DNA from: a sulfur-oxidizing endosymbiont of Gigantopelta aegis
GTDB taxonomy: Bacteria; Pseudomonadota; Gammaproteobacteria; GRL18
Reading direction: 5' to 3'
Assembly (NCBI RefSeq): GCF_016097415.1
Contig: NZ_JAEHGE010000001.1
Span: 397,001-461,000, forward strand
Length of the DNA: 64,000 bases
Below the pieces are notes generated by a model. That model had not been told where the DNA came from and ran no database searches. It saw nothing but the letters and a program-made list of their open reading frames with translations. This document shows positions 27,371 through 31,616 of this stretch, piece by piece; within the stretch, counting starts at the first letter, position 1, and each line of letters begins with the position of its first letter. The translations under genes were made by a program, and so were the position numbers.

Positions 27371-27451
27371 CGTAGGGTGGGCTGCCCACGCAGACCTGGG
27401 ACTTATCCTCACATTTTCAGCGTGGGCAGATAAAGCCATGCCCACCCTACG
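27371..27451. repeat. Palindromic MITE-like repeat, copy A (left arm shortened)
   Basis: CGTAGGGTGGG (27371-27381) pairs with CCCACCCTACG (27441-27451), and CTGCCCACGC (27382-27391) pairs with GCGTGGGCAG (27420-27429). The right arm carries ATAAAGCCATG between these blocks, which the left arm lacks. The same palindrome occurs complete at 62769-62862. It lies between two convergent genes and could act as a terminator. Confidence 0.85.
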
Positions 27452-27454
27452 ATT

Positions 27455-28723
27455 TTAGTCTATCTTATAAGGCTTATAGGGCATTCTGGACACACCGCTA
27501 TCAATAGCAGCCTGAGCGACGGCTGGTGGTACGGTTACCATAAGACGTGGATCAAAAGGCTTAGGGATAATATAATCCGAACCAAATTCTAAACTATCCA
27601 TCCCATAGGCTTCTAAGACTTCATCCGGCACTGGCTGTCGGGCGAGATCAGCCAATGCATGAACGGCAGCAATTTCCATTTCGGTATTAATTGTAGAAGC
27701 CCGTACATCCAATGCGCCACGGAAGATAAAGGGGAAGCCCAACACATTATTGACCTGATTAGGAAAATCTGAACGCCCCGTGGCCATGATTAAATCATCC
27801 CGAACTGCCAATGCAACATCAGGATCAATTTCAGGATCAGGATTAGACAGAGCAAAAATAACCGGGCGTTCGGCCATACTGGCGACCATTTCAGCGGTCA
27901 CAAGATTTGGCCCAGAAACACCAATCAAGACATCCGCACCCTGCATGGCATCGGCCATGGTACGGTCATCAGTTTTGGAGGCAAATTCCTGCTTATAAAT
28001 ATTTAAGTCGTCACGCCCGCTATGAACAACCCCCTTGCGATCAACTAGGTTGATTTGTTGTTTATCAATACCCAGAGAAAGCAATAAACGCATAGAAGCA
28101 ATACCGGCTGAACCCGCACCAATACAGACAATTTTAATGCTCTGTAAGGATTTTTTCTGCACGGCTAAGGCGTTCAATAAGCCAGCAGCAATAATAATTG
28201 CCGTACCATGTTGATCATCATGAAAAACAGGAATATCCAAACGCGCTTTTAATTCTTTTTCAATTTCAAAGCATTGGGGTGCGGCAATATCTTCCAAATT
28301 AATACCACCAAAGGTGGGTGCGACATTAACCACAGTTTCGATAAAAGAGGCTTGCGATGGCGCAGTGACTTCCAGATCAAACACATCAATGCCAGCAAAT
28401 TTTTTGAATAACACACCCTTGCCTTCCATGACGGGCTTTCCTGCTAAAGCGCCCACATTCCCCAGACCTAAAACAGCCGTACCATCGGTGATGACGGCGA
28501 CTAAATTACCCTTGGAAGTGTATTCATAAGCTAATTCAGGATCTTTGGCAATTTCACGTACCGGCTCAGCAACGCCGGGGGTATAGGCTAAAGAAAGATC
28601 GTCCTGTTGCTCACAAGGCTTACTGGGGATGACACTAATTTTCCCCGGAAATGGCTTGGCATGATAGGCCAGTGCTTTTTCACGTAGAATTTCATGTTTG
28701 GTTTTTTTGCTATTATCAGACAT
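27455..28723 (-). CDS. maeB: Malic enzyme, short form without phosphotransacetylase domain
   Basis: 422 residues. The malic domain has [16 protein letters not shown] and [11 protein letters not shown]; the NAD(P)-binding domain has [18 protein letters not shown], and FHDDQHGTA is the metal- and substrate-site block. It oxidatively decarboxylates malate to pyruvate. It corresponds to the N-terminal 430 residues of MaeB; the C-terminal Pta-like regulatory domain of the 750-residue form is absent, as in many bacterial short forms. Cofactor choice cannot be settled from sequence reading alone. Confidence 0.92.
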
Positions 28724-28788
28724 TCTCTGTCCCCATATTTATTAGATACTTTAAAGAGTTATTAGATATTTTAAAAAATAGTTAGATA

Positions 28789-29598
28789 TTAAAGAGTACT
28801 TGGAATAATCAGATCGTGAGCAGTACGCACAGCGATAGACTGCCTACCTTTATAGGTACTCACCCAGCCTCTGACTCGAACGTATTTGCCCACTAAGTTT
28901 TTTAACTTCAGCCCTGGGAAATATTGCCTGTCTTTTTTGGCAATTCGGATAGCTAATTTTTTACTCAATTGTAAATAGATACTTTTTCTACTTTCACTAT
29001 AGGCTGTGATCCTGCCTTTTACAAAGCGCTGACCTTTGCTTTTTTTAGATAATTGACTGGCATTTTGCCATTGATTTTCCTGTAAACGCCAAATACCCTT
29101 CTGTGCATCACGTGCTTCTCTTTCCACACGACGATAACATTGAATTCGTGCATCATTAGGTGGCACGACAATACTATGCGCTAGGCCTTTAGCTAAGAGT
29201 AATTGCTCAATGCTTCGACCATCAGGCAAATTAATATAGGCTAATACACGTTTATAGTGATCTTTTTTATCTTTATCATACGTCAGGCCAATTTTTTTAT
29301 CTCGTCCTAACAATTCTACTAAGGCTTCACGAGCCTTTCTTGCATAGGGCTGAGAACGAGCACCACGACGACCAATTTCAGGAGTATTAATACCAATAAA
29401 GCGGATTTTTCTACCATCAGTCAAGTGTACTGTATCACCATCAACAATGCGTGACACTTTAGCCCAGTCATCAACCTGTGCTAATTGCTGCTGCGCTGAC
29501 AAGCAAGGGGAAGCAGCGCTGGCGACGTGAATCTGAGCCAGAAAAAAAACAAAAAAAAGACACCTCAGAAAACTGAGATGCCCTTTTTTTTGTGTCAC
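28789..29598 (-). CDS. Secreted thermonuclease (SNase-like) with C-terminal OB-like extension
   Basis: 269 residues. A signal peptide (LRCLFFVFFLAQIHVASA) is followed by the SNase domain: VDGDTVHLTDGRKIRFIGINTPEIG with the catalytic Arg/Asp, then ARKAREALVELL and ERREA-like REARDAQKGIW. About 100 further residues (FVKGRITAYSESRKSIYLQL ... GWVSTYKGRQSIAVR) look like an additional OB-type domain. The start is a GTG at 29598. Strikingly, the first 20 or so codons run through the rpmE terminator hairpin, so the signal peptide is encoded by terminator sequence. It is predicted to degrade nucleic acids in the periplasm or outside. Confidence 0.88.
   Translation of the reverse strand: MTQKKGHLSFLRCLFFVFFLAQIHVASAASPCLSAQQQLAQVDDWAKVSRIVDGDTVHLTDGRKIRFIGINTPEIGRRGARSQPYARKAREALVELLGRDKKIGLTYDKDKKDHYKRVLAYINLPDGRSIEQLLLAKGLAHSIVVPPNDARIQCYRRVEREARDAQKGIWRLQENQWQNASQLSKKSKGQRFVKGRITAYSESRKSIYLQLSKKLAIRIAKKDRQYFPGLKLKNLVGKYVRVRGWVSTYKGRQSIAVRTAHDLIIPSTL
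29551..29591 (-). terminator. rpmE terminator, overlapping the thermonuclease start
   Basis: On the minus strand, CATCTCAG pairs with CTGAGGTG around a TTTT loop (one G-T pair), flanked by A8 before and T8 after, a textbook intrinsic terminator just after rpmE. It lies within the first codons of the thermonuclease gene. Confidence 0.85.
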
Positions 29599-29618
29599 AT
29601 CAAAAATCGATGAAGTGC

Positions 29619-29828
29619 TTATTTCTTCATACCATACTTCTGACGGAACTTATCAACACGACCAGCAGTATCAACTAATTTTTGCTTACCGGTATAGAAT
29701 GGGTGACATTCTGAACAGACTTCGATAGACAGTGTATCTTTAGCCAGTGTTGAGCCTGTACTGAAACTATGGCCACAACTACAGGTGACTTGAACTTGTT
29801 CGTATTTTGGGTGGATATCTGCGCGCAT
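29619..29828 (-). CDS. rpmE: 50S ribosomal protein L31
   Basis: 69 residues from [16 protein letters not shown] to [10 protein letters not shown]. This is the zinc-type L31 with CSCG and CSECHPF (four Cys/His ligands). An in-frame upstream extension of 25 residues exists but is not expected in L31, so the ATG at 29828 is taken. It lies between rho and the thermonuclease on the same strand, with a strong terminator after it. Confidence 0.97.
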
Positions 29829-29951
29829 AATATTAAACCTTTTTAAGTGCTTTGAATGCCGCCACCAGAACTTATTTTTAAAATAGTCTGACACCGCAAT
29901 CATTAAGAACGGGCGATCATACGCCCCTTCCAGGATTTTTTCAAGAATTTC

Positions 29952-31208
29952 TTAGCGATTCATGGAATTAAAGAATTCTGCATTGGTTTTGGTATCACTC
30001 ATCTTATCCTGCATGAATTCCATCGCACTGATTTCATCCATAGGGTGCAAGATTTTACGTAAGATCCAAACTTTATGTAAGTCTTCAGGATTCATTAGTA
30101 GGTCTTCTTTACGCGTACCGGAACGATTTACACTGATGGCAGGATAAATGCGTTTCTCGGCCAACTTGCGGCTCAGATGCAATTCCATATTACCTGTGCC
30201 TTTAAATTCTTCGTAAATGACTTCATCCATTTTTGAGCCGGTATCGACTAAGGCTGTTGCTAAAATGGTCAAAGAACCACCTTCTTCAATATTTCGTGCC
30301 GCACCAAAGAAGCGCTTTGGACGTTGTAATGCATTGGCATCTACACCACCAGTCAAGACTTTGCCTGATGATGGTATGACGGTATTGTAGGCACGGGCGA
30401 GACGGGTAATGGAATCCAGCAAAATAACCACGTCTTTTTTATGTTCGACTAAGCGCTTGGCTTTCTCAATCACCATTTCTGCCACTTGTACGTGACGACT
30501 GGCGGGCTCATCAAAGGTTGAGGAAATGACTTCACCTTTTACTGAGCGTTCCATTTCTGTTACTTCTTCTGGACGCTCATCAATCAGCAACACCATTAAA
30601 AAACATTCTGGATGATTGGCTGCAATGGACTGAGCAATGTTTTGCATCATCATTGTCTTACCGGTTTTAGGTGGCGCAACAATTAAACCACGCTGACCTT
30701 TACCGGTAGGTGACATCAGGTCAATGACACGAGCCGTAAAATCTTCGGTACTGCCATTGCCCTGTTCCATGGTGAAGCGATCATTAGGGAACAAAGGCGT
30801 TAGGTTTTCAAACAGCACTTTATGACGTGAATGTTCGGGTTGGTCAAAGTTGATTTCATTCACTTTGAGTAAAGCAAAATAACGTTCGCCATCTTTAGGG
30901 GGGCGAATTTTACCTGAAACCGTATCACCTGTTCTTAGCCCAAAACGTCTGATTTGACTGGGTGAGACATAAATATCATCAGGGCCGGCCAAATAAGAAC
31001 AATCGGCTGAACGTAAAAAACCAAAGCCATCTTGCAGAATTTCTAATACGCCATCACCATAGATATCTTCTCCACTCTTAGCATGTGCTTTAAGAATGGC
31101 AAAAATAACATCTTGTTTTCTCGCTCGGGAGATATTGTCGATTTTAAGATCTTTGGCGGATTCGATTAGTTCTGAGGCGGGTTTTTTCTTTAATTCGGTG
31201 AGATTCAT
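29952..31208 (-). CDS. rho: Transcription termination factor Rho
   Basis: 418 residues, the standard length. The N-terminal Rho domain ([15 protein letters not shown]), the cold-shock-like RNA-binding domain ([22 protein letters not shown] in outline) and the hexameric ATPase with Walker [10 protein letters not shown], Walker [17 protein letters not shown] and the Q/R loops are all present. It ends transcription in an RNA- and ATP-dependent way. trxA lies upstream on the same strand, the common gammaproteobacterial order trxA-rho-rpmE. Confidence 0.97.
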
Positions 31209-31616
31209 GTTGACCTTTAGTGTTTCTGTCTATTGATAGTTAATTGATAGGCAATAATTGATATGATTTTAAAATTTGGATGAGTTGTTAATTCAGTTTC
31301 CGTTTAGGCTTGTGTGATTTTCTGGATTTGTCAGTCTAAGATTTTTTTGTCAAAAAAGCGGACTTACACAATCATTAATAAATCATTTTGTCATTATATT
31401 ATCAAATGGAGTATTGAAATTTTTTGTGAGGCTTATTACGAATGGGTAATATTTAACTTGTATAAAAATTGCTTATTAATACTTGTAGTAATATTTCTAT
31501 ATTGAAATTCTGACGAATTCTACCCTAAAAAAAATAGGATGTCCAGCAACTTATCTAATTTAATTGAAAATTATATAAATAAACTGCTGAAAAAAACCTT
31601 TAACAACTTAAATAGC
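31209..31616. other. AT-rich spacer between trxA and rho
   Basis: 408 bp without a supported gene. It should hold the rho promoter and leader. In E. coli the rho leader is used for autoregulation, but I see no clear structure to claim here beyond strong A/T richness. Confidence 0.5.

Follow-up and report, generated by a model that had tools for sequence, protein, structure and literature searches.

In E. coli, the terminator of the frd operon is also the attenuator of ampC, the gene of an exported enzyme. The rpmE-nuclease pair described here resembles this system, but the frd-ampC hairpin lies in the ampC leader, outside its signal-peptide codons. The ampC promoter includes part of frdD, and the gene has an attenuator (accessible part of PMC11796351). 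Terminators inside reading frames are found in arfA and brfA, where an intrinsic terminator or stem-loop within the frame results in a terminated mRNA without a stop codon; according to the accessible part of PMC8012679, this terminator sits close to the 3' end, and the truncated product is functional. In contrast, the hairpin studied here sits in the first codons of the nuclease gene (codons 3 to 16 of 269), belongs to the upstream gene rpmE, and probably encodes an export signal, so the nuclease has neither the 3'-end terminator nor the working shortened protein of an arfA/brfA-type non-stop gene. The pyrBI attenuator also has its terminator within a translated leader, but that leader is a separate peptide under UTP regulation, whereas the rpmE-nuclease hairpin is part of a putative exported enzyme (for pyrBI, accessible part of PMC4824070). 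The same portion of that paper describes plasmid W48 of Li et al., a man-made E. coli construct in which an upstream gene is followed by a second ORF with a terminator 30 bp from its start. The terminator still functioned and was said to yield a non-stop mRNA; unlike the locus described here, W48 is synthetic, carries no export signal, and has no conservation. In that E. coli system, a ribosome at the stop codon repressed the terminator only within about 27 nt (PMC4824070, accessible part). Terminators inside reading frames (arfA, brfA, and the pyrBI leader) are already known; at the rpmE-nuclease locus, the probable terminator of one gene would supply the signal peptide of the gene after it. 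No account of such an arrangement was found among the best matches in a search of titles and abstract openings, whose coverage lies outside most subscription journals, and rpmE is absent from the main text of a paper on Pseudomonas 3' ends (PMC8297930).

The locus lies in a 64-kb stretch of DNA, called the window here. Pfam profile matches give the minus-strand gene order rho, rpmE, thermonuclease, malic enzyme, with the following features (positions are those of the window):

29952..31208, minus strand: rho, upstream (PF07497, PF00006, PF07498)
29619..29828, minus strand: rpmE, 50S ribosomal protein L31 (PF01197, E 6e-33, residues 26-91; NF000612 and TIGR00105 above cut-off)
29599..29618, minus strand: 20-nt gap from the rpmE stop to the nuclease GTG, with no Shine-Dalgarno-like motif seen (locus L120 of the start survey)
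28789..29598, minus strand: thermonuclease (SNase) ORF of 269 aa, GTG start at 29598-29596 (PF00565)
29551..29590, minus strand: predicted rpmE terminator hairpin, flanking A- and T-tracts included, with a GC-rich stem at 29559-29582 and T8 at 29551-29558
29542..29550, minus strand: G and a second T8 run, which from the sequence lengthen both T-tract and hydrophobic core (V-F-F)
29515..29598, minus strand: putative signal peptide MTQKKGHLSFLRCLFFVFFLAQIHVASA, by translation; cleavage after ASA judged by eye, without a trained predictor
27455..28723, minus strand: malic enzyme, downstream (PF00390, PF03949)

The start of rpmE was set at M26 of the listed 94-aa ORF (29619-29903). The thermonuclease ORF belongs to the SNase family (PF00565, E 1.9e-20, 73.8 bits against a curated cut-off of 21), and its 84.8 bits are far under the NCBIfam equivalog cut-off of 250 bits. 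The PF00565 domain, at residues 64-171 (PDB matches span 46-170), is the catalytic domain shared with the staphylococcal-type thermonucleases; the window nuclease differs from these in about 98 more C-terminal residues outside PF00565. Two more SNase-like genes with 34-36% identity are present in the same genome, on small contigs (L002 and L003, at G000:C4:23086-23457 and G000:C5:33748-34116).

The terminator scan gives the hairpin at 29590-29551 an 18-pair stem, a 4-nt loop, and the tail GTTTTTTTTC. Its stem is the longest among the five terminator-like sites listed on both strands (shuffle mean, 2.0), and the 81-nt segment around it folds at -27.7 kcal/mol (z -5.26), a value that none of 200 shuffles equaled. 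By sequence criteria this is the architecture of an intrinsic terminator, a GC-rich stem-loop with a T-tract immediately after it. No known RNA family was recognized: curated Rfam families gave 0 matches at the gathering score in 27400-31300. The sequence-only reading had proposed that the first codons of the nuclease, from the GTG at 29598, run through the rpmE stem-loop and T8; ORF and terminator-scan coordinates agree on this, and the translation matches exactly its further claim that the T-rich tract encodes LFFVFFL. Within MTQKKGHLSFLRCLFFVFFLAQIHVASA, the A-tract is read as QKK, stem and loop as GHLSFLRC, and T8-G-T8 as LFFVFF, and hairpin and T8-G-T8 all fall within the first 19 nuclease codons. 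T8-G-T8 (29542-29558) also looks long enough for possible RNA polymerase slippage, which would shift the nuclease frame. The GTG at 29598 is the sole in-frame ATG, GTG, or TTG 5' of the hairpin, and the stretch from the hairpin to the mature domain has no canonical in-frame start. Downstream of 29551, where a promoter or start codon would uncouple the nuclease from the hairpin, the next in-frame start is a TTG at +116 past the rpmE stop, within the mature protein, and a scan of the minus strand from 29827 to 29024 for sigma-70-type consensus returned no promoter-like site.

The overlap recurs widely in Gammaproteobacteria and is not restricted to the window genome. We drew 370 gammaproteobacterial genomes evenly, of which 149 were matched by the nuclease profile search, and examined 146 of the 150 matched places (G010, G018, and both pieces of G138 were left out). 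The anchor motif DGD[TS] was present in 142 of these, and the 4 loci without it were set aside. In 129 anchored loci rpmE lies directly upstream on the same strand; among the other 13, L167 and L223 were judged on just 246 and 318 nt of upstream sequence. The loci behind these and the following class counts include the window's own genome and related genera; because the loci are related, the counts are not independent. The distance from the rpmE stop to the motif is 130-190 nt in 97/129 loci, which leaves little space for a terminator of its own between them. With two finders combined, a hairpin was detected in 115/129 loci (pattern finder, 94; fold-based finder, 104). In 101/129 loci an open nuclease frame crosses the hairpin from a start 5' of it, and 41 of these 101 have no later start that would leave a signal peptide. 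Together with 4 loci whose sole start lies inside the hairpin, the nuclease frame begins before or inside the hairpin in 105/129; in 3 more it is open without a prior start. The frame is closed at the hairpin in 7/129, including L244 and L253, where the hairpins are unclear as terminators, and L164, which was tallied as closed because the fold-based finder took another hairpin; the pattern finder ranked L164 among the overlaps. Neither finder detected a hairpin in 14/129 loci, but by eye four of these have an overlapping hairpin (L161, L189, L230, L252) and two a separate one (L226, L247). Pseudomonas turukhanskensis (L074) has the overlap (MGFSVLMKKASLVGAFFVSAICFGPAWA), as does Stutzerimonas stutzeri (L061, MKKASLVGAFFVSVFW), where the terminator AAAAAGGCGTCCCT..GTGGGCGCCTTTTT yields KKASLVGAFF. 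Relatives in which terminator and signal peptide are separate, the case that the sequence-only reading had named as speaking against it, do exist, but as a minority only: 5/14 loci of the genus, by judgement, and the 7/129 class loci with a closed frame.

The sequence of the overlap appears to be constrained in both of its apparent functions. Across the hairpin and the 9 nt beyond it, 102/104 loci have an open nuclease frame, versus 65 and 88 for the other two frames; on to the DGD motif the nuclease frame stays open in 98/104, versus 39 and 44. The T-tract is read in three registers among these loci (56, 36, and 12), whether through slips or through separate origins. When 129 loci were recoded synonymously in 100 sets with each gene's own codons, hairpins of -12 kcal/mol or lower were present in 85/129 real loci but averaged only 17.4 loci per recoded set, with 25 as the highest count; at -7 kcal/mol or lower the numbers were 99/129 versus a mean of 45 and a maximum of 56. 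When 99 loci with an open hairpin were each compared with 200 recodings, no more than 5% of the recodings equaled the real hairpin in 68 loci, and none did in 18; across the 99, an average of 40% of the recodings still gave some hairpin of -7 or lower. The hairpin is constrained beyond what the peptide demands. Chance or artefact as the cause of the overlap is rejected by the class-wide sample together with the frame and synonymous tests. A genome-wide habit was likewise rejected. The scan for it covered 444 kb of the window's genome, made up of 19 stretches besides the window itself, and yielded 410 retained ORFs and 108 terminator-like sites, of which 33 fall within retained ORFs. A terminator-like site lies within 120 nt of the start in five ORFs, and by eye only the rpmE-nuclease pair combines an uninterrupted T8 with a same-strand upstream gene.

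The encoded peptides have the features expected of Sec-type signals by simple hydropathy and pattern tests, namely, a basic n-region, a hydrophobic core, and small residues ahead of the cleavage site. A net positive n-region is present in 88/96 loci, a hydrophobic core by a simple hydropathy test in 94/96, and an A-x-A-like pattern by a loose test in 96/96. The T-tract encodes LF or FF in 71/96 loci; the best hydrophobic 9-mer overlaps it in 62/96 and begins within 10 codons of it in 84/96. The layout is regular and runs from rpmE stop to start codon, stem, and T-tract. The nuclease start, picked by rule in the class loci, follows the rpmE stop by a median of 8 nt and precedes the stem by a median of 25 nt (22-29 nt in most loci), and the stem begins at least 27 nt past the rpmE stop in 87/104 loci, a spacing at which a ribosome on the stop codon left the terminator unrepressed in the E. 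coli system (PMC4824070, accessible part). The 92 starts comprise 51 ATG, 27 GTG, and 14 TTG codons. A Shine-Dalgarno-like motif precedes only 5 of them, versus 188/1840 random positions, and the same test is positive for 93/123 rpmE starts. Since its starts mostly lack a Shine-Dalgarno motif, translation of the nuclease probably falls to ribosomes coming straight from rpmE.

Within the genus, 14/16 genomes, the own genome counted, have the nuclease, and rpmE is upstream at 14/14 loci. Eight loci (L001, L004-L009, L015) share one reading register of the hairpin, for example as RHFSFLKCLFF, and in L014 the frame is open through it in a different register. In L005, a TAA closes the nuclease frame upstream, and its sole start, an ATG 73 nt past the rpmE stop, falls within the loop of the terminator; L007 and L004 have a loop start (ATG and TTG, respectively) besides upstream ones. 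The sole start also lies inside the terminator hairpin in L212, L234, and L241, and in these loci, as in L005, initiation would require an opened hairpin. The five loci labelled separate by judgement are L010 and L012, whose frame is closed by stops until past the terminator, and L011, L013, and L016, whose frame is open, yet the likelier starts lie 3' of the terminator. On a 27-row family tree the overlap/separate label needs 3 changes, and the separate arrangements look derived, as far as this weakly resolved tree goes. Tree and class sample suggest that the overlap is ancestral in the family, a suggestion and not a proof because of the weak resolution and because the outgroups were picked as overlapping. 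For covariation, we compared 16 hand-picked family hairpins, overlapping and separate, with 500 shuffles. Of the stem cells, 95.4% pair, versus a shuffled mean of 90.2%, and 21 cells are double-changed, versus a shuffled mean of 7.5; 0/500 shuffles were as high in either measure, and slid versions gave 0-3 double-changed cells. Two other measures were unexceptional (double-change pairs, matched by 35/500 shuffles; number of pair types, by 475/500). The proposal of the sequence-only reading that one stretch probably serves both as terminator and as signal-peptide code gains strong support from recurrence, frame, synonymous recoding, and covariation.

The reading that we favor, at a probability of about 0.72, is a read-through-limited, translationally coupled rpmE-nuclease bicistron in which A-tract, stem, and T-tract double as signal-peptide codons (e.g., KKA...GAFF). 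The hairpin would be the intrinsic terminator of rpmE and would also be translated, as the nuclease ORF would open a few nucleotides past the rpmE stop and cross hairpin and U-tract, with basic residues from the A-tract and the Phe/Leu core of the signal peptide from the T-tract. By analogy with the E. coli system (accessible part of PMC4824070), rpmE transcripts should mostly end at the hairpin: the majority of RNA polymerases would halt there and give rpmE mRNA, and a minority would read through. The exported nuclease would be encoded by those transcripts only and translated mainly by ribosomes fresh from finishing rpmE. The terminator would thereby hold nuclease output low and coupled to rpmE. 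A ribosome that initiates the nuclease ORF on a terminated mRNA would find no stop codon and need rescue. That nuclease expression depends on read-through, as had been proposed from the sequence alone, is suggested by the negative promoter scan and by starts near the rpmE stop without Shine-Dalgarno motifs; since the hairpin that would end rpmE also encodes the export signal, nuclease synthesis probably needs RNA polymerase to read through it. A more extended version is tentative: an old, class-wide overlap in which the rpmE terminator, with A-tract, stem, and T-tract that already spell a signal peptide (K-K-A...G-A-F-F), would have been captured as the export signal, with termination, re-initiation, and rescue jointly gating the exported enzyme and with an output that reads rpmE translation and transcription-translation coupling.

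The same spacing could fit a ribosome-controlled attenuator, a possible if doubtful arrangement that refines the read-through bicistron rather than excluding it. A ribosome that has completed rpmE and re-initiates at the nuclease start would mask the 5' arm with RNA polymerase still at the U-tract, block the hairpin, and let transcription continue, so that nuclease output would report rpmE translation with a pyrBI-like logic. The 22-29 nt from start codon to stem, the median of 8 nt from rpmE stop to nuclease start, and the translated terminator of the 105/129 loci are consistent with this, as is the repression of terminators by nearby ribosomes in E. coli; however, terminators placed up to 100 bp into a coding region were efficient in that system (both in the accessible part of PMC4824070). 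It is improbable that nuclease transcription starts at a separate promoter, inside rpmE or 3' of it, with the hairpin merely tolerated in the nuclease mRNA. The scans detect sigma-70-like consensus only, and a promoter of another type inside rpmE could escape them, but no site of the scanned type lies between 29827 and 29024 on the minus strand, a transcript starting 5' of the hairpin must still pass it, and the nuclease starts are without Shine-Dalgarno motifs.

We consider it slightly less probable still that the hairpin serves the stability or processing of the nuclease mRNA and not the termination of rpmE. Three loci not beside rpmE (L075, L094, L096) also have hairpin and T-tract in signal-peptide codons, but in the last 160 nt 5' of the motif a hairpin is present in only 8/35 nuclease-type loci without rpmE, many of them more distant SNases mostly from one earlier set, versus 87/129 with rpmE. 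Moreover, the stem is followed by a T-tract, and in 10/20 genomes without a nuclease match rpmE keeps a hairpin of -7 or lower within 150 nt, some of them weak. Finally, the GTG without a Shine-Dalgarno motif and the available TTG at +116 would fit an over-long ORF call, with a real protein that starts downstream and is not exported. This is very unlikely in view of the n-region, core, and A-x-A-like pattern of the encoded peptides (88, 94, and 96 of 96 loci), the frame and recoding tests, and L005, where the sole start is in the hairpin loop.

A single DNA segment is apparently under selection in two roles: it would stop transcription of a ribosomal-protein gene and would also encode an export signal. 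The route from terminator to signal peptide may be simple, with A-tracts giving Lys and T-tracts Phe or Leu. Such loci offer a natural, widespread test bed for the behavior of terminators in first codons and for the fate of ribosomes on the resulting non-stop mRNAs. They are also a warning that gene-start calling and terminator prediction may conflict at rpmE-nuclease-type loci.

A few loci depart from the common layout. L075, L094, and L096 (two Methylophaga records and one Piscirickettsiaceae MAG) encode a second SNase type, to which rpmE is not adjacent, with a conserved hairpin (-15.8 kcal/mol) and a T-rich stretch in signal-peptide codons about 160-140 nt before the DGD motif, read as IGLLMQANF or LVGLLLQANF; this overlap is perhaps an independent case. 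In L292 and L294, from two genomes without a nuclease match, what looks by eye like the start of malic enzyme (ALDYH...) comes shortly after the rpmE stop, which indicates that the nuclease slot can be empty. In L246 and L248, an extra domain with the pattern YRW.D..G..HYGDRPPP, tentatively DUF4124-like, stands between the putative terminator-encoded signal peptide and the nuclease domain.
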